Position numbers and translations under genes: made by a program
Part shown: one piece after another, positions 11,157 to 50,844 of the stretch
Position numbering within the stretch: the stretch's first letter is position 1
Layout: every line of letters starts with the position of its first letter
The notes under the pieces: model-generated
What the model saw: only the letters and a program-made list of their open reading frames with translations
What the model was told of the DNA's origin: nothing
Databases searched by the model: none
Assembly: GCA_027491075.1 (NCBI GenBank)
Contig: JAIXWX010000025.1
Location: forward strand, 186,001 to 250,000
Source: Flavobacteriales bacterium
Lineage (GTDB): Bacteria > Bacteroidota > Bacteroidia > Flavobacteriales_D > Sanyastnellaceae
Direction: 5' to 3'
DNA length: 64,000 nt

Positions 11157-12530
11157 ATGTTTTTTAGCCGAAGTTTCGATGAGCCCAAATATTTAATCTT
11201 TTGGATATTTTTTGTTTGCCCATTTCATTTATTGGCGCAGACATTCCAAAATGGATCATTGGAGTCGTGGGGCATGACATCCACTTGTTCGGTTAATACT
11301 GTTCCGGATGGTTGGGTAAGTTTTTCAAATGGAGGTCAAAATTTGGACGAATGTGATTTTTCAATTTGTGCCTCTACAATCCCAGCTCAAGCATCTGAAG
11401 GTAACTCTTACGGAAGAGCTTATGCGGCTACTTTGACAACAGGCGAAGGCCTTGCACAGCAGGTGGATGAATTGATTATAGGTAATGAATATGAAATTTC
11501 TTTTGATTTTGCAGGCTCCAATCTTCTTCCTGGATCGGATAATTGCCGATGGCATATTTTCTTAGACAATCTAGAGGTTGACGCGACCATCGTATTTAGC
11601 GCCGCCGAGGCCCAATGGAGTACACATACATTTTCATTTCTTGCTAGTAATACGTCACATGTTTTTGGCTTTAGAGCCTTCAATGCAACCCAAGGTTCAG
11701 GAGGCAGCGCTGGCATCGATAATTTCGTCATCACGAATATTACTCCAGAAGAAATATTGCCGCCGATTGCTGCATTTACGCAATCACAAGAGGTTATTTG
11801 CGTGGGTGAGTGTATAGTATTCACTAACACTTCTCAATTTGAATCTCAAGCAAGTTGGACCTTTGAATCAGGAAGTCCAGCAACTTCTACAAGCGTGAAT
11901 GCTGTCACTGTGTGCTACGATGTTCCAGGCGTTTATTCAGTAGAATTATCCGTGTCCAATGAAGATGGAACGGATCAAGTAGTGTTGCAACAAGCAGTCA
12001 CTGTGAATGATGTACCCGAAGGCACGCTCGCATTGGCAGGTGACTCATTGATTTTGTTGACGGATGTGGGTATAGGAGCTATTAATTGGACCTTAAATGG
12101 CTCTCCAATTTTGGCGAGTGGTTTGGTACTTACTCCTGCGGAGTATGGCTTTTATGAAGTGGACATCGAAAACGAATTTCTTTGCACTACATCGCTCAAC
12201 ATATCCATTGAAGAGCCTCCCGTGATCATTCAACCAGAAACTCTCCCCGTATGGATTCCAAATGCAGTAACCTTTACTGAAGATGGCATCAATGATAGCT
12301 GGGGTGTTTATGGCGAATTGACAGCATTAGAAAGTTTTAATGCACAAGTATTCAATCGTTGGGGGCAGAAAGTTTTTGATACGAATGACGTCGACGAGCG
12401 CTGGACGGGCAATGCTTTTGATGGTCAATATTTTGTTCCCGATGGTATTTATCTCTACATCGTCACCCTCAAGTTTCCTTGGGAAATCGAAAATCGCCAA
12501 TACAAAGGGCATGTTAATGTGCTTCGGTGA
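11157..12530 (+). CDS. Secreted surface protein with PKD-like domain and T9SS type B C-terminal domain
   Basis: A 457-residue exported protein. After a signal peptide (ending LLAQ, about residue 28) comes a jelly-roll-like domain (about 30-195, with AGIDNFVI) that resembles carbohydrate-binding or adhesion modules. Next is a PKD-like domain (about 203-285, with GECIVFTNTS and VPGVYSVELSVSN). The C-terminal 90 residues (IPNAVTFTEDGINDSWGV, then FNRWGQKVFD, then YKGHVNVLR) form the gliding-motility-associated / type B sorting domain that sends proteins through the T9SS. It is monocistronic. The likely role is adhesion or surface binding; the ligand is unknown. Start ATG 11157 gives a somewhat long N-region before the hydrophobic core. 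Confidence 0.88.
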   Translation: MFFSRSFDEPKYLIFWIFFVCPFHLLAQTFQNGSLESWGMTSTCSVNTVPDGWVSFSNGGQNLDECDFSICASTIPAQASEGNSYGRAYAATLTTGEGLAQQVDELIIGNEYEISFDFAGSNLLPGSDNCRWHIFLDNLEVDATIVFSAAEAQWSTHTFSFLASNTSHVFGFRAFNATQGSGGSAGIDNFVITNITPEEILPPIAAFTQSQEVICVGECIVFTNTSQFESQASWTFESGSPATSTSVNAVTVCYDVPGVYSVELSVSNEDGTDQVVLQQAVTVNDVPEGTLALAGDSLILLTDVGIGAINWTLNGSPILASGLVLTPAEYGFYEVDIENEFLCTTSLNISIEEPPVIIQPETLPVWIPNAVTFTEDGINDSWGVYGELTALESFNAQVFNRWGQKVFDTNDVDERWTGNAFDGQYFVPDGIYLYIVTLKFPWEIENRQYKGHVNVLR

Positions 12531-12738
12531 TCGAAAGCGACCTAATTGAATAGGTAACCGATCCTATAGGTTCAAAACGAAGTTATTTGTGTAGCCATTT
12601 TTGAAAAAACTGCCCGGCTCCGCCATTGAAAAATACTAGTGCCTGACGGGTAACTAATAATGAAACGGATTCGAATTTACATGATAGATCTCATTGATCA
12701 ACAATTCGAGCTGTCATATAAAGAAGAAAATTTAGTTT

Positions 12739-12766
12739 AAAAAAAAGCCACGTTTTTCAACGCGGC
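12739..12766 (-). terminator. Rho-independent terminator of the M49 peptidase gene
   Basis: On the minus strand, arms GCCGCGT and ACGTGGC (one G-U pair, loop of 6) are followed by eight T. It lies about 30 nt after the peptidase stop. The rest of the 265-nt gap (12531-12738) shows no gene I can support. Confidence 0.85.
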
Positions 12767-12795
12767 CTTTCTTTGAATTTCTTCAGAAAGAATAA

Positions 12796-40216: not shown

Positions 40217-40993
40217 ATGCGTACAAAAATTGTTGCTGGTAACTGGAAGATGAACAAGAATCTGGATGAGGCTATGGAATTGGCGGTGGAGCTTCAAGAG
40301 CACCAATCGGATTTCCCCTCAGATGTTCAAGTAATTATAGCTCCGCCTGCTATTTATCTCGCTAATTTGGAAATGATTGATGAGCCATGCTATCAACTGT
40401 CGGCACAGAACTGTAGTCATCATGATTACGGCGCATTTACTGGAGAAATTAGTCCTGCGCAATTGCGTCACATGGGTATCAAATATTGTATTCTAGGACA
40501 CAGTGAACGACGCCAGTATTTTCATGAAACAGATGAACTGATTGCCTCTAAGGTTGATGCCTGTTTGCGCAACGAAATATCTCCTATATTTTGCTGTGGT
40601 GAAATGTTGGAGGAGAGAAAAGCCAATACCCACTTTGTAACTGTACTTCACCAATTGGAAAAGGCTTTATTTCATTTGGATAAGAAAGACATGAGTAAAG
40701 TAATTGTCGCCTATGAACCAGTTTGGGCCATAGGTACTGGAGTTACTGCATCATCAAATGAAGCACAAGAAATGCATGCTTTCATTAGAGAGACCTTAAG
40801 AAATCATTTTGGGGTAGAAGTTGCCGAACAAGTGAAAATATTGTATGGAGGAAGCGTTAATGCTGGGAATAGTGCAGAACTTTTCTCTAATCCAGATGTA
40901 GACGGAGGTTTGGTTGGTGGAGCTTCATTGAAAGCACGTGACTTTATTTCAATTATCAAGAGTGCTGCAATGCCTTCTCAAATCGAAGATTAA
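40217..40993 (+). CDS. tpiA: Triosephosphate isomerase
   Basis: A 258-residue glycolytic enzyme interconverting dihydroxyacetone phosphate and glyceraldehyde 3-phosphate. Visible are AGNWKMNK with catalytic Asn/Lys (N11, K13 type), GHSERR with catalytic His (about residue 97), YEPVWAIGTG with catalytic Glu (about 169), and LYGGSVN for phosphate binding. It is followed by prmA with a one-base stop/start overlap (TAATG at 40991-40995), so the two are translationally coupled, an arrangement I would expect in this phylum. Confidence 0.98.
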   Translation: MRTKIVAGNWKMNKNLDEAMELAVELQEHQSDFPSDVQVIIAPPAIYLANLEMIDEPCYQLSAQNCSHHDYGAFTGEISPAQLRHMGIKYCILGHSERRQYFHETDELIASKVDACLRNEISPIFCCGEMLEERKANTHFVTVLHQLEKALFHLDKKDMSKVIVAYEPVWAIGTGVTASSNEAQEMHAFIRETLRNHFGVEVAEQVKILYGGSVNAGNSAELFSNPDVDGGLVGGASLKARDFISIIKSAAMPSQIED

Positions 40994-41838
40994 TGATATA
41001 TATTGAGTATACTTTTTTGCTAGATCCCATACTTCCCGCTCGGGAAGTCCTTATTGCTGAGTTAAGTGAGTTGGGGTTTGAGAGTTTTGTGGAGAATGAA
41101 GACGGTCTGCAAGCCTATATTCAAAAGGAAGTTCTTCAAGAGGGATTTGAAGAGTTTCTAATGACCAAAGAAATCGACGGTTTAAGTTTTTCTTTTTCAC
41201 GCAAGGAAATAGCGCAAGTCAACTGGAATGAAGAATGGGAAAAGAATTTTAGTCCCATTATAGTAGACGAGGCGTGTTTGATAAAAGCGCCATTTCACGA
41301 GATGGACACTTCAAGATTTCAATATGTAATAGAAATAGAGCCAAAGATGTCATTTGGAACAGGGCATCATTCTACCACGCATTTGATCATTTCGGAAATG
41401 ATGACCATGGATTGGAGAGGTAAAAGCGTTTTGGATATGGGCAGTGGAACAGCAGTATTGGCCATATTGGCATCAAAAATGGGAGCTGAAAATTGCGCTG
41501 CAATTGATATTGATGAGTGGGCTTATGAGAATGGTGTAGAGAATGGGAGAAGAAACGGCGTGTCAAATATCATTTTTCATAAGGGAGGTGCAGAGCTGTT
41601 GGGGAATGAAAAGTATGATCTCGTGCTTGCGAATATCAATCGCAACATTTTAATGGCAGATATGCAACACTATGTGAAGGTTTTGGTGGAAGATGGAGAA
41701 ATTCTTTTCAGTGGTTTTTATGATCAGGATGTGCCAGTACTAGTAAGTAGGGCAGAGGAGTTGGGTTTAGTGTTGATGAATAAAAGATTGAAAGAAGAGT
41801 GGTGTATGCTTCGTATGAAAAAGAAAGGGCTCCAATAG
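40993..41838 (+). CDS. prmA: Ribosomal protein L11 methyltransferase
   Basis: A 281-residue SAM-dependent methyltransferase of the PrmA family: N-terminal substrate-recognition domain (about 1-75), linker with NWNEEWEKNFSP, FGTGHHSTTHL (about 119-129), SAM motif VLDMGSGTAVLAILASKMG, and LANINRNIL, the family's post-motif. It trimethylates L11 in the ribosome. Coupled to tpiA. The stop codon TAG lies inside the loop/stem of the terminator hairpin, an economical layout. Confidence 0.95.
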   Translation: MIYIEYTFLLDPILPAREVLIAELSELGFESFVENEDGLQAYIQKEVLQEGFEEFLMTKEIDGLSFSFSRKEIAQVNWNEEWEKNFSPIIVDEACLIKAPFHEMDTSRFQYVIEIEPKMSFGTGHHSTTHLIISEMMTMDWRGKSVLDMGSGTAVLAILASKMGAENCAAIDIDEWAYENGVENGRRNGVSNIIFHKGGAELLGNEKYDLVLANINRNILMADMQHYVKVLVEDGEILFSGFYDQDVPVLVSRAEELGLVLMNKRLKEEWCMLRMKKKGLQ

Positions 41839-41858: not shown

Positions 41859-42701
41859 TTATTCACAATCAAGGAATGTATAAATATCCAGTACTGGCGG
41901 CGAAGGTGCATATCCAGGCTTTACTACGTAATACCTCAATTGAGTGAGTTGTGTTCCTGCCGGCATCGTAGGGAAAAAGGTATCTGGAAATAATGACAGT
42001 CGGAACTCCCCAGGCTTACCGGGAACCGCTTTCATCATCAATGCAGGAGTGCTGGTCACCTGAGGAAGGGGTACGTGAGGATAATTAGCAAAGGCGGTTT
42101 GACCTCTACCTGAGATAAATAAGTAAACTTCACCTTCCTGTAAGTTTTGAAGATTCGGGTTGGTTTCGATGTTGTTGTTGTAGGTAATGGAAATGAAATC
42201 GTCTTGCTTTGCAAACTCAGGGAATTCACAATACAAATCATCACAAAGTTTAGGGATGATAGTAACTTTTAAATCCTCTGTTTTTGCTTCTCCAACATTC
42301 ATATCCGAGTATGCATTTCCGTCTTTGAGTTTCGCTAAACAAGCTATTCCTTTTGTGAAAAAATCAGGACCGCTTACTTGATAAAACTCGGTTGGAATAA
42401 ATTCCATTTTGAATAAAAGCCCGCTAACATGGGTCATTTTTCTGCTCTCTGCACTTTCGCCCCAAGAGCCATTTGAACCTGGCACTTCATTGGGCAACCA
42501 TGTCCATAAATAAACATTGTTAACCTCGTCTGGGTGTGCTTGAAGCATTGCCTTGAGTCCACCTCCAGTGGAGTTGTTCACGTCAATGTACAAAGTGATC
42601 AACTCATCTGCCGCAGTAGGCGAGGGAAGCACATAGGCGGCTTGTCCAAAACCAGTTAAAGAAAGAACAAGCGCCGCGATGGAAAAGAATAAATTCTTCA
42701 T
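41859..42701 (-). CDS. Secreted SusE/F-like glycan-binding protein of the susCD locus
   Basis: A 280-residue exported protein (signal ends GFGQ, residue 20). It seems to contain two tandem copies of a beta-sandwich module: first about 28-150 (ADELITLYIDV, GSWGES, FIPTEFYQV), second about 165-278 (DDFISITYNN, FRLSLFPDTFFPTMPAGTQL, LRYYVVKPG). The same pattern occurs at the N-terminus of the amylase encoded upstream (DDQITILYNA, GNWGTA, ITPSTYYDLLPNETV, MMFVFRN). I therefore infer a surface starch-binding role like SusE/SusF. It has no lipobox, unlike SusE. It is the last gene of the operon and meets the prmA terminator. Confidence 0.65.
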   Translation of the reverse strand: MKNLFFSIAALVLSLTGFGQAAYVLPSPTAADELITLYIDVNNSTGGGLKAMLQAHPDEVNNVYLWTWLPNEVPGSNGSWGESAESRKMTHVSGLLFKMEFIPTEFYQVSGPDFFTKGIACLAKLKDGNAYSDMNVGEAKTEDLKVTIIPKLCDDLYCEFPEFAKQDDFISITYNNNIETNPNLQNLQEGEVYLFISGRGQTAFANYPHVPLPQVTSTPALMMKAVPGKPGEFRLSLFPDTFFPTMPAGTQLTQLRYYVVKPGYAPSPPVLDIYTFLDCE

Positions 42702-42709
42702 GGTCGTGA

Positions 42710-43213
42710 TTATTGACGAGTGAATTCGTATTTGTAAATTACAGTATTAATTACGCTGCCACCAGTATTGCACGATCGTGGTAGCAAGTCTATGCCCAAT
42801 GTGTTGTCGAAGGATCTTATCATTCTACTCATGGTCACCTTAAGCGTGTCTTCAGCCCCATAAAGGAAAAGTTCGCCCGGAGCGCTATCGTCGTCGAAGC
42901 CCCACGTTCCGCTATTGAGCAAATAATTTTTTCCAGCACCAGGAGTGACGAAGAAGGTGCGGTCGGAAGTGTTGAAGGTTATCTTCATGCGTTCTTCAAT
43001 ATTGGGAACCGCGAAGAATTGACTTAAGTCGCGCTCTTCTTGAAGCGGATTGTTTAAGTCTACCTGTGAAAACTTCGAAACATACCAAGTTCCATTCATT
43101 CCTTCTACCAAGTCGAATGGAGTACCCAGTTCTCCCTTTGGCTCTGGTTTACAGCCTTGAAATCCAATGGTTGCTAGTGCGAGTGCAACAATGGGAAATA
43201 TGATTTTTTTCAT
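42710..43213 (-). CDS. Lipoprotein of the susCD locus, DUF5004-like
   Basis: A 167-residue lipoprotein (signal ALATIGFQGCKPEP, Cys about residue 21). The body begins EGMNGTWYVSKFSQVDL and contains MKITFNTSDRTFFVTPG and NSGTWGFDDDSAP, resembling small lipocalin-like DUF5004 proteins that often accompany SusD genes. The function is unknown, probably surface-exposed and accessory to glycan capture. It lies 23 nt after susD and 8 nt before the SusE/F-like gene in the same transcript. Confidence 0.7.
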   Translation of the reverse strand: MKKIIFPIVALALATIGFQGCKPEPKGELGTPFDLVEGMNGTWYVSKFSQVDLNNPLQEERDLSQFFAVPNIEERMKITFNTSDRTFFVTPGAGKNYLLNSGTWGFDDDSAPGELFLYGAEDTLKVTMSRMIRSFDNTLGIDLLPRSCNTGGSVINTVIYKYEFTRQ

Positions 43214-43236: not shown

Positions 43237-44646
43237 TTAATCACAACCGCCCTCTGGATTACCTACAAAAGAGGCTCCCGTAAATTCAGCGTTGGGGAAT
43301 TGAATGGCCATACCTGGACAGTTCCAAGGTGCTCCGCGCACGGTAATAGGCAATCCTTTTGCTCCCAATCTGCGAATTTGATCAATGCGATAGCCTTCAC
43401 CGACGGTTTCTTTACGAAACTCTAAGCGTGCTGCTTCAATCACCTGTGTAGCGCTGCTGCTCAATGATAGGTTTGCTTGTGGTCCACCGAATGAACGTTC
43501 ACGAATGTCGTTGATATCATCTATTGCTGTGGATAAATCAGTTCCCAATTCAGCCAAAGATTCTGCACGGATCAACTTAACGTGTGTCAATCGAATGAGC
43601 GGGATGTTAAATAGAAAAACGGAGTCTTCAGGTGTCCCGTAACGCAGATTCAAATTCTGTCCACCTTCAACGGAGATCCAGGCTTCAGTTCTCGGGTCAT
43701 TTCCCCCTTGACTAAACAAGTTGAAAAGATCTTGACTAAAGCTCAGTTGCGCGCCCGCTTGACCAGGTATATAATTATCCCTGAAGCCTTCGTTTCTGAA
43801 ATCCACTAGCTCAGAGGAAGAAAAAGAAATGATGGAGAAAATAGCCTCAGGATTTGTAACAAACTGAATGTCGTTGTCCATCGAATGGAAGGAGTCAAGC
43901 CCTTGTACCAAAGCATAGTTACCTGAGTTGATAACTTCGCTGGCGATAGCTGCGGCCGACGAGTAGTTGTTTTGTTGGAAATAAACCTGTGAAAGCAAGG
44001 CCCCTGCTGCATATTTTGAAGCAAAATTGCCATTTGCTAGAGGCAGATTGTCATAACAATAAACTAGATCTTCAATGATGGATGAATAACACTCAGCAAC
44101 GGTGTTTCTCGGAACAGGCGTTGCATCGGTACCTAGTCTTAATACGATTCCTAAGTGAGAGTTATCTGGTGTATATCCCCAAGGTTGTGCCCAGATTTTT
44201 AAAGTCCACCAGTGACAAATCGCACGAATGAACCTTGCTTCTGATTCCATTCTTGCTTTCTCGCCATCAGACAATCCCTCAAATACATCTAAACTTTCGA
44301 TTACCGTATTCGCTCGGAATATTGCTCTGTATAAATCAGCATAAATATTATTGGTAGTGCTGGTAAAGAAATTGACCTCTCTATCATGCACTGCAATAAG
44401 ATCTAAGTTATTCAAAGGTCTTTCCAAATTATCGGAGAGTAATTCTGCAATATTTTGTGTACGGCCATCAAATGTGTTTCCTAATACGTCATAACAACTC
44501 ACCAAGAGGCGTTGAGCATCCTCTGGGGTTTTAAGTGCGTCTTCAGCCAAGATGACATTTTCTGGACCGATGTCTAAAAACTTTTTGCAACCCGCTATTC
44601 CCAGGGTCAAACCAAAAAGTGAAATGATGATTAATTTCTTGTTCAT
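43237..44646 (-). CDS. SusD/RagB family nutrient-binding outer-membrane lipoprotein
   Basis: A 469-residue lipoprotein (signal ends LGIAGCKKFLDI, Cys20). It has the SusD fold with TPR helices: DALKTPEDAQRLLVSCYDVLG near the N-terminus, ARFIRAICHWWTLKIWAQPWG (about 137-157) as the conserved TPR segment, and the C-terminal LIRAESLAELG and RLEFRKETVGEGYRIDQIRRLG. It forms the lid of the SusC transporter and presents oligosaccharides to it. Directly downstream of susC (11-nt gap). Given the linked GH13 enzyme, the ligand is likely an alpha-glucan such as starch or glycogen. Confidence 0.95.
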   Translation of the reverse strand: MNKKLIIISLFGLTLGIAGCKKFLDIGPENVILAEDALKTPEDAQRLLVSCYDVLGNTFDGRTQNIAELLSDNLERPLNNLDLIAVHDREVNFFTSTTNNIYADLYRAIFRANTVIESLDVFEGLSDGEKARMESEARFIRAICHWWTLKIWAQPWGYTPDNSHLGIVLRLGTDATPVPRNTVAECYSSIIEDLVYCYDNLPLANGNFASKYAAGALLSQVYFQQNNYSSAAAIASEVINSGNYALVQGLDSFHSMDNDIQFVTNPEAIFSIISFSSSELVDFRNEGFRDNYIPGQAGAQLSFSQDLFNLFSQGGNDPRTEAWISVEGGQNLNLRYGTPEDSVFLFNIPLIRLTHVKLIRAESLAELGTDLSTAIDDINDIRERSFGGPQANLSLSSSATQVIEAARLEFRKETVGEGYRIDQIRRLGAKGLPITVRGAPWNCPGMAIQFPNAEFTGASFVGNPEGGCD

Positions 44647-44657
44647 GGTAAGGAATA

Positions 44658-47600
44658 TTAGAAGTTGGCGGATATACTGAAGTTATAACTGCGCTCTTGC
44701 GGAGGTGTCAAGTAAGTCACGTTGGGAGAAAGATTTCGGTCTTGTGGATTTTCGAAGTCACGCACCAATTCAGGATCCAAACCTGGGAAGTTTGTTATAG
44801 TGAACAAGTTGACTACGTTGGCTCCAACACGAAGTGATTTTACAATTTTCTTGTTCTTCAAGTTGAAGGTGTAGCCAAGCGCGAAGTTTCTCAAACGCAA
44901 GAAGTCTGCATTGTAGATGAACAGGCTGGTGTTCCACCATGGAAATCCGCTAGGAAGTCCATAGGTAGTTTCATCCAAAGTTAAACGGGGGAAACTTGCA
45001 TCGTCACCGGGTTGTCTCCAACGATCGAATAGCTCCGTGCGCATATTCCAATCGGTGACTACACCCAATTGTCTTTTTCCGCTGGAGTCAAATATCTTGG
45101 CTCCTAGAGAAAACGTTGCGAGAATTTGACAGTCAAAGTTTTTGTAGCGGAAGCTATTAGTGATACCCCCAATAACGTCCGGTAGTCCGTCACCAACATA
45201 TTGACGTTGGTTGTTGTCATAATCGAAGGTCTGATTTCCATTTTGATCCAGATAAACAGGCAATCCGGTTTCAGCGTCTACGTGACTAAATTTCATTAGG
45301 TAGAAAGAACCAATTGGACTGCCTACAATAACACGGGAGTCATTGGTGCCACCGCTTACAGCGTCGGGTGTGTACTCACCGATATCTATTAGTTCATTGT
45401 AGTTGCGAGCAATATTAAAGTCGGTCTTCCATTCAAAGTTTGGACGAACAATATTGAAGCTGCTAATGGTCAATTCTACTCCCTGATTGAGAATGGTGGC
45501 CACGTTATCCCAATAGGTTTGGAATCCAGTTGAAGATGGAACACTTACATTCATCAATGCATCTTTCGTGTCTTTTCTGTACACAGAAAAAGTAACTGAA
45601 AGTCGGTCTTTTAACAATCCCATTTCAACGGTAGCATCATAGGTAGTCGTCGTTTCCCATCGCAGATCAGGGTTTCCTTTTTGAATTGGATAAATGATGG
45701 GTTGACCATTGTAGGTTATACCGTTGTTCAGTGGAGAATACGTGCTGAATTGCGCATCGGCTTGGATGTCCGCGTTTCCAGATCGTCCCATACCTGCACG
45801 GAGCTTTAAGAAGTTAATGGTTTTCTTTAAAGGCGCAAACCAGTTTTCGTCAGAGATAACCCAACCAGCAGACAAGCTTGGGAAAAATCCATATCGATTG
45901 TTCTCACCGAAACGACTAGAACCATCGATACGACTTACCGCTTGAATAAAATATCTGTCTTTAATGCTGTAGTTTACACGGGCAAAGGAACTCACAAAGG
46001 TCCAGCGCACTGGCGTCGCTTCAGAAGCAATGCGAATGGTTGAGTCAGTCTCAAAATCGCTGGTGTAAGGCGACCCATTAATGAACTGATAATAAATGTT
46101 TGAATATCCTTTCGCTCCTTGTTCTTGCGCTTCTGCTCCTGCTAAGAAGGTGAGGCGATGGTCGTCATTGACTTGATACGTATAGTCTGCGGTCAGAGAG
46201 GTCGTCCAGTTGTTCGTCCAAGTAGGTCTTTCATCAGCAGAAGACGCTGGCGTATTGGGGTAGAAATCTCCAGGAACAAATCGATAGTCGCGGAAATCCA
46301 TGTAATCGTAAGCTCCACTTGCGCGAATGTTCAGGTTTTTTACAGGCGTATATACAATGGTCGCGTTAGCTATAGTTCTTCTTTCCTCACTTCTCCAATT
46401 GATGTTTTCGCGTACACCTACTGGATTGTCGATTCCAAGAAACCAATCACCTACTTCTGCATTTTCAGGGTTAATAAAGGCTATTGCCGCCGAATCATAT
46501 CGAACAGGAAAATACGGAAGAGCGGTACTCATTGCTAACCCCATCCCTCCATTCCATGCAGCCGCAATTCTTCGATTGATTCCAAGACTTTGAGAAAAAG
46601 AAGTCATCAATCGCAGATTTTTGCTAAATGCATAATCGTAGTTTACTCTACCAGAAAATCTTCTAAATGAATTTCCTTCAAGATAAGAACCATTATGATC
46701 GAAGGTAACTCCTGCGTACAGACTTGATTTTTCCCAACCTTTGTTTAATCCAACGCTGTACATATGCTTGAGGCCTACGCCGACAGTTTCGTCTACCCAG
46801 TCAGTATTAAACTGCTTGGCTTGTTCAAATTTTTGTGCTCTTTCGAGGGCAGAGGCTCCTCCTCTCGTTCCTGTATTATAACGTACACCTGGCAACCATA
46901 CGTATCCAGTGCCGCCATCATTTTCCCAAGCCTCTTGACGCATTTGAAGATACTGCTCAGTGTTCATCATATTCGGTAAAGAAGCGGGAACTCCTATTCC
47001 AATGCGGCTTTGAAAATCTACGGACAAGGCTTTTTGCTTTGTTCCTCTTTTTGTGGTGATCAAAACAACCCCATTGGATCCACGGCTTCCATAGATACCT
47101 GTGGCCGCGGCATCCTTCAATATCTCTACAGATTCAATGTCATTAGGGTTAATGGTGGCAAGTGGATTGTTATTCATCCCACCGCTATTACCATTGATGA
47201 ATTGACTTTGTGTAATAGGAATTCCATCCACTACATACAAAGGGTCGCCTCCCGCGGATATGGATGCCAATCCTCGAATTCTTAAGATGCTCGATGATCC
47301 TGCCAAGCCGCTTCCTTGTGTGACTTGAACCCCCGCAGCCTGTCCTTGAAGTGCCGCTTCAAAACTGGGTACCGGTAATTTGGTCAGTTCCTTTCCATCG
47401 ATTTTAGAAATAGAACCAGTGACCTCACGCTTGCGCTGAACACCGTATCCAACAATTACCAACTCGTCCAGCTCTGAGTCCTCCGATACCAGCGTGATAT
47501 CTAAGACAACGGTAGAGCCAGCGGCAACATCGACTTCTTTGGTTTGGGTCTGATACCCGACAAACTTAAACTCTAGAGTGGTTTTGCCTGGCTTTAGCTG

Positions 47601-47780
47601 CAAGGAATACTTGCCGTCTAAATCAGTGGTGGTACCCACCGTATTGGACACATCCTTCACAACGACGCCAGGTATCGTGCCTAGATCATCACTTACAGTG
47701 CCCTTCACGGTTTGAGAATGCGTAACGGCGCTCCAAAGTAGAAGCCCAGTGGTCGCAATCAATGAGTAAATACTTCTCAT
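44658..47780 (-). CDS. SusC/RagA family TonB-linked outer-membrane transporter
   Basis: A 1040-residue transporter: signal peptide (ending THSQ, residue 23), carboxypeptidase-regulatory-like domain (about 25-100, VKGTVSDDLGTIPGVVVKD), the segment ELVIVGYGVQRKREVTGSIS that marks the SusC plug start, plug (about 115-230, DPLYVVDGIPI, GIYGSRGSNGVVLITTKRG), then a long beta-barrel ending in YNFSISANF. It imports oligosaccharides using TonB energy. It is followed by susD. Its control region is the unusual nested inverted repeat at 47816-47897, with a promoter whose -33 element sits at the centre of a palindrome. Confidence 0.96.
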   Translation of the reverse strand: MRSIYSLIATTGLLLWSAVTHSQTVKGTVSDDLGTIPGVVVKDVSNTVGTTTDLDGKYSLQLKPGKTTLEFKFVGYQTQTKEVDVAAGSTVVLDITLVSEDSELDELVIVGYGVQRKREVTGSISKIDGKELTKLPVPSFEAALQGQAAGVQVTQGSGLAGSSSILRIRGLASISAGGDPLYVVDGIPITQSQFINGNSGGMNNNPLATINPNDIESVEILKDAAATGIYGSRGSNGVVLITTKRGTKQKALSVDFQSRIGIGVPASLPNMMNTEQYLQMRQEAWENDGGTGYVWLPGVRYNTGTRGGASALERAQKFEQAKQFNTDWVDETVGVGLKHMYSVGLNKGWEKSSLYAGVTFDHNGSYLEGNSFRRFSGRVNYDYAFSKNLRLMTSFSQSLGINRRIAAAWNGGMGLAMSTALPYFPVRYDSAAIAFINPENAEVGDWFLGIDNPVGVRENINWRSEERRTIANATIVYTPVKNLNIRASGAYDYMDFRDYRFVPGDFYPNTPASSADERPTWTNNWTTSLTADYTYQVNDDHRLTFLAGAEAQEQGAKGYSNIYYQFINGSPYTSDFETDSTIRIASEATPVRWTFVSSFARVNYSIKDRYFIQAVSRIDGSSRFGENNRYGFFPSLSAGWVISDENWFAPLKKTINFLKLRAGMGRSGNADIQADAQFSTYSPLNNGITYNGQPIIYPIQKGNPDLRWETTTTYDATVEMGLLKDRLSVTFSVYRKDTKDALMNVSVPSSTGFQTYWDNVATILNQGVELTISSFNIVRPNFEWKTDFNIARNYNELIDIGEYTPDAVSGGTNDSRVIVGSPIGSFYLMKFSHVDAETGLPVYLDQNGNQTFDYDNNQRQYVGDGLPDVIGGITNSFRYKNFDCQILATFSLGAKIFDSSGKRQLGVVTDWNMRTELFDRWRQPGDDASFPRLTLDETTYGLPSGFPWWNTSLFIYNADFLRLRNFALGYTFNLKNKKIVKSLRVGANVVNLFTITNFPGLDPELVRDFENPQDRNLSPNVTYLTPPQERSYNFSISANF

Positions 47781-47815
47781 GGATTCGTGGTTGGTTTGGT
47801 TTATTGGTTATGAAA

Positions 47816-47897
47816 AGAGACCCCAAACTTAACATTTTTTTCATCTGAGTGTATCAAATACACTTTCTCAGGTGAAAAAAGTTTTGCAGGGGTCTCT
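47816..47897. repeat. 82-nt nested inverted repeat between amylase and susC genes
   Basis: Four nested arm pairs in the 124-nt gap: AGAGACCCC / GGGGTCTCT (47816-47824, 47889-47897), AAACTT / AAGTTT (47825-47830, 47879-47884), TCATCTGA / TCAGGTGA with one mismatch, a G-U pair in RNA (47841-47848, 47868-47875), and AGTGTAT / ATACACT around CAA (47848-47864). In minus-strand RNA it could fold into one long hairpin ending in GGGGUCUCUUUU, so it may end the amylase transcript. As DNA, the inner palindrome overlaps the susC promoter. Confidence 0.8.
47824..47857 (-). promoter_or_regulatory. susC promoter (TTG - 23 nt - TAAGTTTG) with palindromic operator
   Basis: Minus-strand -33 TTG (47855-47857) and -7 TAAGTTTG (47824-47831) match the consensus with 23-nt spacing. 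The TTG is the exact centre of a 17-bp palindrome (AGTGTAT-TTG-ATACACT), a layout expected for a repressor or activator site. Start of transcription would be about 40 nt before the susC ATG. Confidence 0.65.
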
Positions 47898-47904
47898 AAA
47901 AAAC

Positions 47905-50724
47905 TTATTGCTGAGAAATCATTACCTGTTCGGTCATGATTCCTCCTTCGGTAATTACACGTAATATGTATTGACCATTAGGAATTTCGTTATCAAAAAG
48001 GTAGGTGTGGAAACCAGAAGGTAACTGACCTTCGTTTCTGCTCACTACCACGCGTCCCATCATATCCACCATTTCAATCACCACGCGAGATCCTTGAGTC
48101 AATTCAAAGGTAAGATTTAACATATCGTCTGCGGGATTGGGATATACACTCATCTTCTTGCCGAAAAAGCTCATCACTTCTTCAACACTCACGTTCAAGT
48201 CTGGAGCAGGTAACTCATAATCGAGATATACATGGTATTCTCCTGGCTCATAAAAGAACGATGCGTTCAAATCATTCACCTGGAAAGAGGTTCCTGTGAA
48301 GTAATCGTACCAAGTACCGGTGTGCTGGAATCCTGGTACCATGTTGATGGAGTTTACACTTGTGTTGCCTACCACTACTGCATTTTGTACGCTTCCATTT
48401 AAGTGAATTCTCTTGCCGAAACCGCCCAAATCAATATCATAATTTGTTGTAGAGAAAAGCGGTTGAGTCAACTTAAGCTTGTTCAATGCAGCGGTAACTT
48501 TATACACTCTCAAGCGGTCTGCATTTTCCCGATAGTCCCAACGAATAGGCTTAGGAGCTGTGCGACAATCCGGATTAATAGAACCGTTTTCGCAATAGTT
48601 AATGCTGTAATCATAACCAAGTTCACCAAATTGCCATATCATTTTTGGCCCAGGGAGGGGTATTAAAAGTGCGTGAGCCATTTCTTGGCGCTCTAAAGCA
48701 ATGTCGAGCTCCTGAACATTATAGCCAGCACTGCTATTTCCGAAGTTGATGTTCTTATACATCATTCTTTCCTCATCATGGCTTTCTGCATAGGCCACCA
48801 AGTGAGGATTCGACCAACCTCTGGCCTGGTAGCTTGCCCACGTGAGATCACTTGGGTAGCCCATAGATGCCTCTTCATAGGCCGTTGTCATTTTACCCCA
48901 AAACATCATTCCTGAGTTGGAAAGAGCCTGTTCTTCTGGATTGTCTGACAAGTGTTCTAAAATGGCGTAGCACCCTGGCTCTACGGACTGCATATGGGTA
49001 TAATAGTCATTCCAAATATTCACTCGGCTTTGATCGTACTGGTTCCATGCACCAATGTTACCCAAGGTGTTGTTTTGGGTAAAACCTTTGGATAAGTCAA
49101 AACGATATCCGTCAATATGGTATTCATCCATCCAGTAAGAAATCACTCTTTTCGTGAATGCTCTTGTTCTTGGAGATTCATGATTGAAGTCGTAACCAAC
49201 ATTGAAGTCGTGAGTAGGAGTTTGGTTAAACCAAGGGCTTTCCGCAGTAGGTTGTCCAAACTCTCCCAGGTCAGGATTAAAGTACATTCTTACCATTGGA
49301 TTTTGTCCGAAGCTATGATTCAAAGCGATATCCAATATGACAGCAATTCCTCTGTTGTGGCATTCGTTCACAAATGTCTTTAATGCTTCTGGCGTTCCAT
49401 AAAATTTATCTGGTGCGAAATAAAAGGCCGGATTATAACCCCAACTGTTGTTGCCCTCAAATTCATTAATCGGCATAAGTTGAATGGCATTCACTCCGAG
49501 ATTTTCTAGATAATCAAGGGTGTCTGTCAATGTCTGGTAATTTTGCGCTGCAATGAAGTCACGAATGAGCAACTCGTATACAATCAATCGCTCTTTGGGA
49601 GGACGAACGAATGTTTGATCTGACCAAGCAAAGGAGTCTTCATTGATCTTAAATACAGAAACTGGATCGGTAGTCAATCCGACTGGATAAGGTGTAAGGT
49701 TCGGATAGGTCGTTGCTGGAATCCATGGATCGTCCCATGGACTAAGAATCTTTTCAGCATAGATGTCCGCTACGCGCATATTATCATCGCCAATATGATA
49801 TTGAAAACTATATTCCACATTCGGATCTAATCCAGTAATGTCAATCCAATAGGTTTGACCATCTGGTGTTCTGTTCATGAAGTAATCCAAGTCCAATTGC
49901 CAGTTATTGAAGTCTCCCACTACAAATAAATAGTCCTTGTTTGGTGCGAAAAACTGAAGTCTAACTGTGTTGCTATTGATGTAGTTTATTCCATCAATGG
50001 TTCCAGCGGGAGATGCCGCTACGTTGACAGAAGGCAAAATGAGAATCGTTGTTGAATCGGTGATAGTTTCCGCGCCATTGATGGCTGTGAACTCTACGAT
50101 GTACTCACCCGGTGTAGTTTCGTTAAAGGTGTAGTTTAATGAAGTTTGACCATCGGCAGAGGCCACTGATTCTCCATTAATTGAGATATTCAATTGACTG
50201 GGCAAAGAAGCTCCCGTAGTGATGGTGAAATTTTGTCCACTGTTTACAATGGTGCTCGAAACGTTTGGAGAGATAATTCCTGCATTAAAACCTGCTTGAT
50301 ATATGTCAAGGAAAATATCACTACCATCCGCATTTCTACCGACCACCGTTCCGCTTTGATTGCGAAATACAAACATCATTCTGCTCACCGTTTCATTGGG
50401 TAGCAAATCATAATAGGTAGAAGGAGTAATGATGATTCGATGGATGTTATTTCCAAGTGGAGTCATTACCACGTTTGGGTCTGCTGTTCCCCAGTTACCC
50501 TGAACATGTTGCCAATCATTGAGATTGTCGCTATTGTTGGTAATCACCCCGGTGTGTGCATAAATCGGGATAAAACCAGATAATGCACCATTTCCTGATG
50601 TGGCGTTGTAGAGAATGGTAATCTGATCGTCTTGAGTAGGAAAGGCTGGGGTGGTGCTAAGAATTTGCGCCCAAATCCCCATGCTGCTTACCATTCCAAG
50701 GAGGAACAAGTAGATTGTTTTCAT
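47905..50724 (-). CDS. Secreted GH13 alpha-amylase with CBM48-like domain and T9SS type A signal
   Basis: A 939-residue exported enzyme: signal peptide (ending GIWAQ, residue 20); N-terminal module like those of the SusE/F-like protein (about 25-140); Ig-like segment (about 150-235); CBM48-like domain (about 245-330, LFVVGDFNNWQ); GH13 TIM barrel (about 375-760) with nucleophile Asp543 (DGYRFDLSKG), acid/base Glu590 (YAILEHLSD) and Asp650 (AESHDEERM); a beta C-domain; and a T9SS type A domain (about 860-939, VYPNPADDMLNL). It should cut alpha-1,4-glucans at the cell surface or outside. It is upstream of susC on the same strand, with its own -7 box at 50746-50753. Confidence 0.95.
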   Translation of the reverse strand: MKTIYLFLLGMVSSMGIWAQILSTTPAFPTQDDQITILYNATSGNGALSGFIPIYAHTGVITNNSDNLNDWQHVQGNWGTADPNVVMTPLGNNIHRIIITPSTYYDLLPNETVSRMMFVFRNQSGTVVGRNADGSDIFLDIYQAGFNAGIISPNVSSTIVNSGQNFTITTGASLPSQLNISINGESVASADGQTSLNYTFNETTPGEYIVEFTAINGAETITDSTTILILPSVNVAASPAGTIDGINYINSNTVRLQFFAPNKDYLFVVGDFNNWQLDLDYFMNRTPDGQTYWIDITGLDPNVEYSFQYHIGDDNMRVADIYAEKILSPWDDPWIPATTYPNLTPYPVGLTTDPVSVFKINEDSFAWSDQTFVRPPKERLIVYELLIRDFIAAQNYQTLTDTLDYLENLGVNAIQLMPINEFEGNNSWGYNPAFYFAPDKFYGTPEALKTFVNECHNRGIAVILDIALNHSFGQNPMVRMYFNPDLGEFGQPTAESPWFNQTPTHDFNVGYDFNHESPRTRAFTKRVISYWMDEYHIDGYRFDLSKGFTQNNTLGNIGAWNQYDQSRVNIWNDYYTHMQSVEPGCYAILEHLSDNPEEQALSNSGMMFWGKMTTAYEEASMGYPSDLTWASYQARGWSNPHLVAYAESHDEERMMYKNINFGNSSAGYNVQELDIALERQEMAHALLIPLPGPKMIWQFGELGYDYSINYCENGSINPDCRTAPKPIRWDYRENADRLRVYKVTAALNKLKLTQPLFSTTNYDIDLGGFGKRIHLNGSVQNAVVVGNTSVNSINMVPGFQHTGTWYDYFTGTSFQVNDLNASFFYEPGEYHVYLDYELPAPDLNVSVEEVMSFFGKKMSVYPNPADDMLNLTFELTQGSRVVIEMVDMMGRVVVSRNEGQLPSGFHTYLFDNEIPNGQYILRVITEGGIMTEQVMISQQ

Positions 50725-50753: not shown

Positions 50754-50844
50754 GGAAAGTGTTATTTGTACACCATCTTAATATTCTTGAAAATTTTAAA
50801 AAAATCGTCGTTTTTTGTGCTCCGTTATTCAAATATTCGAATTT

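Follow-up and report, generated by a model that had tools for sequence, protein, structure and literature searches.

A recurrent palindrome between an amylase gene and susC as a probable operator of an AraR-like Nudix regulator, enclosed by an RNA hairpin

The amylase-susC gap and its nested inverted repeat

The window analyzed here (64,000 nt of a Flavobacteriales contig) carries a starch utilization locus on its minus strand. A gene for a GH13 amylase with a T9SS C-terminal tail (47905..50724; Pfam/NCBIfam) is followed, after a gap of 124 nt between the amylase stop (47905) and the susC start (47780), by the gene of a SusC/RagA TonB-linked receptor (susC, 44658..47780; TIGR04056, 5.1e-227) and by susD (43237..44646; SusD-like_3, SusD_RagB). 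The SusE/F position is taken by a DUF5004 gene (42710-43213) and a DUF4961 gene (41859-42701), which together span 41859..43213 on the same strand. The genes for triosephosphate isomerase and a prmA-like protein (40217-41838) converge on the end of this susCDEF-type operon, and the same neighbors seem, as read by eye, to come after the operon in genome G020 (locus L166).

The nested arms that had been claimed for the amylase-susC gap were found at 47816-47897. The outer arms are AGAGACCCC/GGGGTCTCT, the middle part is imperfect, the arms further in read TTTTTTCA-CTGAG/CTCAG-TGAAAAAA, and the innermost pair, AGTGTAT-N3-ATACACT, occupies 47848-47864. On the minus strand these 82 nt form a stem-loop (47816..47897) that starts 7 nt past the amylase stop codon and encloses both the palindrome AGTGTATTTGATACACT (AGTGTA-N5-TACACT, 47848..47864, minus strand) and a predicted susC -7 box, TAAGTTTG (47824..47831, minus strand). 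Within the hairpin, this box belongs to the outer 3′ arm; the original prediction had likewise let it overlap an arm. RNA folding of positions 47801-47904 gave -32.8 kcal/mol (z, -5.4) for the minus, or amylase, strand and -36.4 kcal/mol (z, -6.4) for the plus strand, and in each case 0 of 200 shuffled sequences folded as well. When intergenic regions were ranked with a 110-nt window and 60 shuffles, where the element reached a z of -3.85, the gap came second among the 37 intergenic strands of the window and first among its 7 co-directional gaps. The strongest intergenic fold of the window (12531-12795; z, -5.8) lies between convergent genes and resembles an ordinary terminator stem.

The nested repeat is single copy; with its one match in the genome, a dispersed repeat or MITE was rejected. 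A search of the window for AGTGTATNNNATACACT with up to 2 mismatches returned one exact match and only one other, at 11809-11825 with one mismatch, which was rejected as a further operator because it lies inside an open reading frame (ORF). An Rfam scan of the window yielded no family at the gathering threshold. A standard terminator scan, which takes only loops of 3 to 8 nt and requires T-rich tails, did not list the repeat. The nested inverted repeat is real, nonrandom, and functional looking.

Recurrence of the palindrome and a linked Nudix regulator

The original prediction had proposed looking for AGTGTAT-N3-ATACACT-type sites elsewhere, and the same core was indeed found at other genes. 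Exact matches to AGTGTA-N5-TACACT were counted in 40 genomes, comprising the genome of the window and 39 relatives, with the reversed pattern as a control; 76 copies were obtained, compared to 20 for the control. The exact copies were distributed over 25 genomes of the family to which the window belongs (73 copies) and 2 genomes of family f5 (3 copies), with none in the other 13 genomes, while the control copies numbered 16, 0, and 4 in these same sets. By crude gene calling, 71 of the 76 exact sites were intergenic and had a gene start no more than 200 nt downstream. Three were located inside an ORF, two of them 82 and 36 nt before pfkA, and the remaining 2 fitted neither description, although one (L032) stands just before an IPExxxVDY gene. 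All 15 control sites with loci, out of the 20, lay within ORFs, 6 of them also within 200 nt of some ORF start.

Clustering of the neighboring proteins assigned 65 of the 76 exact sites to recurrent gene classes; 11 adjoin other genes. The 17-bp core is not private to susC (5 sites at SusC-like genes). The commonest context was the gap between pfkA and a divergent gene for an NrtR/AraR-type Nudix regulator (17 sites at pfkA and/or the regulator), followed by GH13 and IPExxxVDY genes (9 each), pdhA (6), GH31 genes, MFS transporter genes, and the glucose-6-phosphate isomerase (PGI) gene (4 each), the glutamate dehydrogenase gene gdhA (3), pdhB (2), and the genes for enolase and fructose bisphosphatase (fbp; 1 each); these class names rest on one family-scanned representative per class. 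For the MFS and IPExxxVDY classes, the scanned protein was that of the window genome itself (L046 and L032), tied to its class by blastp, and one of the 8 clustered IPExxxVDY proteins (L092) was not linked at an E value of ≤1e-3. In the window genome, a pyruvate kinase gene comes after the IPExxxVDY gene, as read by eye. A strong dyad was seen in just 3 of 30 fbp upstream regions read, two of these from one genus, and a Cra-like activation of fbp was therefore dismissed as a general feature. On the pfkA side of L061 and L077, the palindrome lengthens to 25 bp (acttAGTGTA..TACACTaagt), and at many pfkA genes a -7-like TAAGTT box touches the operator. An NADP-specific glutamate dehydrogenase gene is preceded by the site at a distance of 116 to 118 nt in three genera (L058, identified by family scan, and L067 and L112, identified by cluster).

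In the window genome, the regulator gene is located on contig C14 (G000:C14:82381-83121), divergent from pfkA and with the same operator in between, while the amylase and susC genes are on contig C25. The protein combines an N-terminal Nudix domain with a C-terminal NrtR winged helix, with all domain matches above the cutoff (NrtR_WHD PF21906, 1.2e-23; Nudix PF00293, 5.7e-7; PF19368, 1e-6), and its best PDB match was AraR of Bacteroides thetaiotaomicron (BtAraR; 2.3e-38). The recognition helix, DKRNFRK, was identical to that of BtAraR in all 17 genomes with a readable pfkA-linked regulator; at the pfkA loci L077 and L096, no regulator was present in the examined stretch. Class-wide, orthologues at E values of ≤1e-60 were found in 20 of 149 genomes, the window genome included. 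All 20 carried DKRNF, and in 13 of the 20 an [AT]GTGT-N7-ACAC[AT] dyad, counted without a chance control, lay within about 1.5 kb of the regulator gene.

Presence of the motif followed presence of the regulator. Exact sites occurred in 22 of the 25 genomes with an orthologue at an E value of ≤1e-80 and in 0 of the 15 without one; this cutoff was chosen afterwards, the corresponding figures at 1e-60 were 22 of 28 versus 0 of 12, and relatedness among the genomes was uncorrected. The orthologues in G004, G014, and G023 came without exact sites. In 16 relatives, the regulator gene and susC (in some, a susC fragment only) share a contig within about 6 kb. Four genomes (G013, G007, G034, and G040; L162 to L165) display, mostly as read by eye, the order GAPDH, pfkA, operator, regulator, amylase, susC, susD, with DUF5004 and then DUF4961 in the position after susD; the first three carry an extra gene between regulator and amylase. 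The guess of a LacI, AraC, or GntR regulator was dropped on the strength of this linkage, since the gene recurrently found with the sites encodes an NrtR/AraR-type Nudix regulator.

In the study of Chang et al. 2015 (PMC4666351), BtAraR was assayed by EMSA on an oligonucleotide containing AAGTGTAAAAAAGACACTT (operator form, AGTGTAAAAAAGACACT) and was crystallized on a 27-mer containing AGTGTTACTTTTACACC; the authors concluded that the DNA contacts of AraR define a GTGT motif. Its sugar frees BtAraR from DNA. The sequence at 47848-47864 conforms to the AraR-type operator pattern AGTGT-N7-ACACT, with half-sites 11 bp apart, and together with its recurrence this marks it as a predicted site of the NrtR/AraR-type regulator. 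All helix residues that contact DNA in BtAraR (D178, K179, R180, N181, R183, and K184) are identical in the regulator. In the wing, K204 is kept (numbering shifted by 3) and R205 is aligned to P. Of the residues contacting arabinose, R86 and H131 align, R34 corresponds to Q, and the alignment reads about 15 inserted residues after R86. We therefore rejected an assignment as the arabinose regulator proper; judged by its sequence, the protein is a relative of AraR and not an AraR. The exchange of R34 and the insertion after R86 suggest that its ligand probably differs from that of AraR, and R34 and the wing exchange at R205 together point to differences from BtAraR in both ligand and fine contacts.

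A second NrtR-type paralogue of the window genome (G000:C7:15929-16672; L160:2930-3673) has the helix DKGNFRK and adjoins, as read by eye, a permease-like gene and genes for secreted proteins; it is perhaps another sugar regulator.

Promoter geometry and conservation of the hairpin

The -7 box consensus is TAnnTTTG. The set of susC loci comprised 30 members, of which 29 were scored: L022 was left out, since its contig begins inside susC, L130 of G001 was added, and L018 (G015) could not be scored because a 498-amino-acid open frame runs up to the start taken for susC and leaves no gap. As the original prediction had anticipated, the palindrome is also present in relatives: a strong dyad (at least 10 of 12 positions) was detected in 15 of the 29 gaps (each with P ≤ 0.025 by shuffling). 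Of the 14 gaps without a strong dyad, 6 contained a degenerate one and 8 nothing palindromic. In 15 of the 29 loci, the dyad is followed after 13 to 17 nt by a TAnnTTTG-like box, which is also the basis for the box predicted in the window; at this distance, the dyad covers the -33 region. The palindrome had further been described as centered on a -33 TTG. A TTG is at its center here, but TTTG occupies the middle in only 4 of 21 susC-gap dyads, and a conserved -33 box was thus discarded; the central TTG is mostly incidental. The palindrome is upheld as a recurrent, probably regulatory site whose distance to the -7 box of susC hardly varies.

The amylase has an operator-like site of its own, GGTGTACAAATAACACT (50758..50774, minus strand; G000:C25:236758-236774), 4 nt upstream of TACATTTG, and amylase-side sites were also seen in L162, L163, L164, and L166. 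This weakens the earlier proposal of one element behind the ratio of amylase to susC; the two genes are probably under joint control, not balanced against each other by a single element.

Site positions at the other target genes were evaluated relative to -7-like boxes, which are pattern picks often tied with or weaker than another candidate. The site stands 15 to 16 nt before the last G of the box in 15 of 17 pfkA genes, downstream of the box in 6 of 8 IPExxxVDY genes, and in a repressor-type position in 5 of 10 amylase genes. It lies 49 to 55 nt upstream of the box in all 6 pdhA genes and 35 to 37 nt upstream of its last G in 3 of 4 GH31 genes. In all four susC loci with exact sites, 32 nt separate the site center, at about -36, from the last G of the box downstream. 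Because AraR works by repression and most positions are obstructive, repression is favored as the main mode; some promoters, possibly including that of susC, may instead be activated.

Counterparts of the stem, likewise spanning operator and -7 box, were found in G001 and G002, both of the same genus as the window, and in G020 of another genus. After trimming of the cores by hand, the stems scored z values of -8.0, -7.2, and -7.0, respectively, and the whole gaps scored -7.9/-8.7, -5.8/-5.2, and -3.5/-2.8. The arm sequences differ among the hairpins of the three genomes of the window's genus and G020, and pairing is kept. When the stems were registered on the -7 box, 12 positions showed two-sided changes; as each species was paired by its own fold, this result is supportive and does not amount to a blind covariation test. 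The operator alone forms the stem in G011 and G029; G009 and G010 have a separate stem ahead of the operator. In total, 8 of the 29 scored gaps contained a clear stem; the other 21, most of them no longer than 102 nt, scored no better than a z of about -2.8, and the enclosing hairpin is absent from most of the window's family. Since these 8 gaps differ in design yet all keep a stem behind the amylase gene, the hairpin may serve the 3′ end of the amylase mRNA.

A stable stem-loop after the coding region, as intrinsic terminators have, is present at the amylase end. The sequences following the stem (CUCUUUUCAU here and UCUCUUACC, GGACUGUUUGC, and UCUCUUUCCC in G002, G001, and G020) are weak U-runs, and U-runs were poor throughout the 8 stem-bearing gaps except in G009 and G029. 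A long hairpin ending in a U-run, and with it termination or attenuation of read-through, had been proposed for the amylase RNA; the hairpin is strong, but the U-run is poor, which leaves a terminator or attenuator role tentative. Folding of 103 oriented 91-nt operator contexts (without shuffles) placed L065, L112, and L066 lower in energy than this element, which came next; the contexts before gdhA (L112 and L058) and that of L066 fold about as stably as the window element. With a few of the 103 contexts as stable as this one, the notion that the other operator sites lack stems was dropped. The gdhA sites perhaps provide a link to nitrogen assimilation and a second case of a hairpin operator.

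A probable AraR-like operator at the susC promoter

We consider it probable (roughly 0.78) that the palindrome is an operator of the AraR-like NrtR-family regulator, which would repress susC until a sugar ligand is present, and that the hairpin is a second feature acting at the RNA level. A dimer of the Nudix factor would bind both GTGT half-sites at their spacing of 11 bp and lie over the -33 region of susC, where it would most likely keep out RNA polymerase. Once a sugar-derived ligand bound in the Nudix domain had loosened the dimer from DNA, susCD would be induced along with the amylases, GH31, the sugar transporter, and glycolysis. Amylase transcripts would fold at the stem-loop, which would probably end or protect the amylase mRNA and limit read-through into susC. 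The site with its recurrence and spacing, the homology of the regulator, and the strong stems of four species were observed; binding, repression, ligand, and hairpin function are inferred. The reading draws its support from the enrichment of the motif (76 versus 20 copies), its upstream location (71 of 76), the identity of the recognition helix, and the co-occurrence of orthologue and motif; against it stand the 14 of 29 susC loci without a strong dyad, the exchanged pocket and wing residues, the three orthologues without exact sites, and the spacing at pdhA, which suits an activator.

That spacing belongs to an alternative in which the same Nudix regulator activates susC as a class II activator beside the -33 region. 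The constant site center near -36 at the four exact-site susC loci fits this alternative, as do the upstream sites at GH31 and pdhA, and dependence on an activator would agree with a -33 region in which TTTG is not conserved. We regard it as unlikely, though worth keeping in view, given that the sites at pfkA, amylase, and IPExxxVDY genes occupy repressor positions and that BtAraR lets go of DNA in the presence of its sugar (PMC4666351). Far less probable is that the 82-nt element is primarily an RNA stem-loop, a terminator or 3′-end stabilizer of the amylase mRNA, with the palindrome as nothing but its loop-proximal stem. In its favor, G020 and all three members of the genus fold strongly here, with paired arms of differing sequence; the operator-only stems of G011 and G029, the separate preceding stems of G009 (with a U-run) and G010, and the few other operator contexts that fold as strongly (L112 and L058 before gdhA, and L066; no shuffles) speak for it as well. 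Against it, the 17-mer is present at some 70 further sites, almost all of them in front of genes, and in susC gaps without significant folding (G017, G040, and G051), and the U-runs are weak. Binding of the palindrome by another regulator, either a Crp- or LacI-type protein or the paralogue on contig C7, appears at least as improbable. The paralogue (at G000:C7:16016) does have a related Nudix/winged-helix sequence and the helix DKGNFRK, but this helix has Gly in place of the intercalating Arg180, contig C7 carries no RGTGTA-N5-TACACY site even when one mismatch is allowed, and the presence of the motif follows the pfkA-linked orthologue.

The operator thus assigned to the AraR-like regulator is of a known operator family, and its overlap with a promoter and a stem-loop is unusual, not unprecedented. 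The closest system is AraR of B. thetaiotaomicron (BT0354; PDB 5bs6/5dd4/5ddg/5deq), which shares the Nudix and winged-helix architecture, the DKRNFRK helix, and the AGTGT-N7-ACACT operator and has SusC/D genes among its predicted targets (PMC4666351); AraR controls arabinose genes, whereas the sites described here lie by glycolytic, pyruvate dehydrogenase (PDH), and alpha-glucan genes. SusR of the Bacteroides sus locus likewise controls a starch susCD locus but senses maltose in the periplasm and uses long-spaced direct-repeat sites (PMC3878776). NrtR and NdnR, which respond to ADP-ribose or NAD and control NAD synthesis, are of the same family with different targets, and the NCBIfam NtrR model matches the regulator at 103 bits compared to a cutoff of 400. 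With Cra/FruR and CcpA, too, sugar uptake and glycolytic genes, pfkA among them, answer to one factor, but these regulators belong to unrelated protein families, and gluconeogenic fbp rarely carries a strong dyad here. Intrinsic terminators that overlap a downstream promoter likewise have a stem-loop after the stop codon and then some U; here, by contrast, the loop-proximal half is the operator, the 3′ arm holds the -7 box, and the U-run is poor. No NrtR-type regulator of glycolysis or starch use in Bacteroidetes was found in the literature as far as it was available; Rodionov 2008 or the tree in Figure 1A of PMC4666351 may mention one.

In Bacteroidetes, the best-described control of polysaccharide use runs through SusR and hybrid two-component systems, for the most part glycan by glycan. 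More tentatively, and with the odds somewhat against it, the Nudix repressor could be a master switch linking glycolysis and PDH to the import of starch in several Bacteroidetes lineages, with the 82 bases doubling as the susC operator-promoter and as a selected stem-loop insulating the amylase. If this is true, one cytoplasmic Nudix regulator would govern glycolysis, PDH, and alpha-glucan uptake as a functional counterpart of Cra and CcpA from an unrelated protein family. For these Flavobacteriales, seen here only as genome assemblies, a regulon of central carbon metabolism would become readable through a simple 17-bp site, and the bases shared by operator, promoter box, and hairpin would show in compact form how constraints on DNA and on RNA can coincide.
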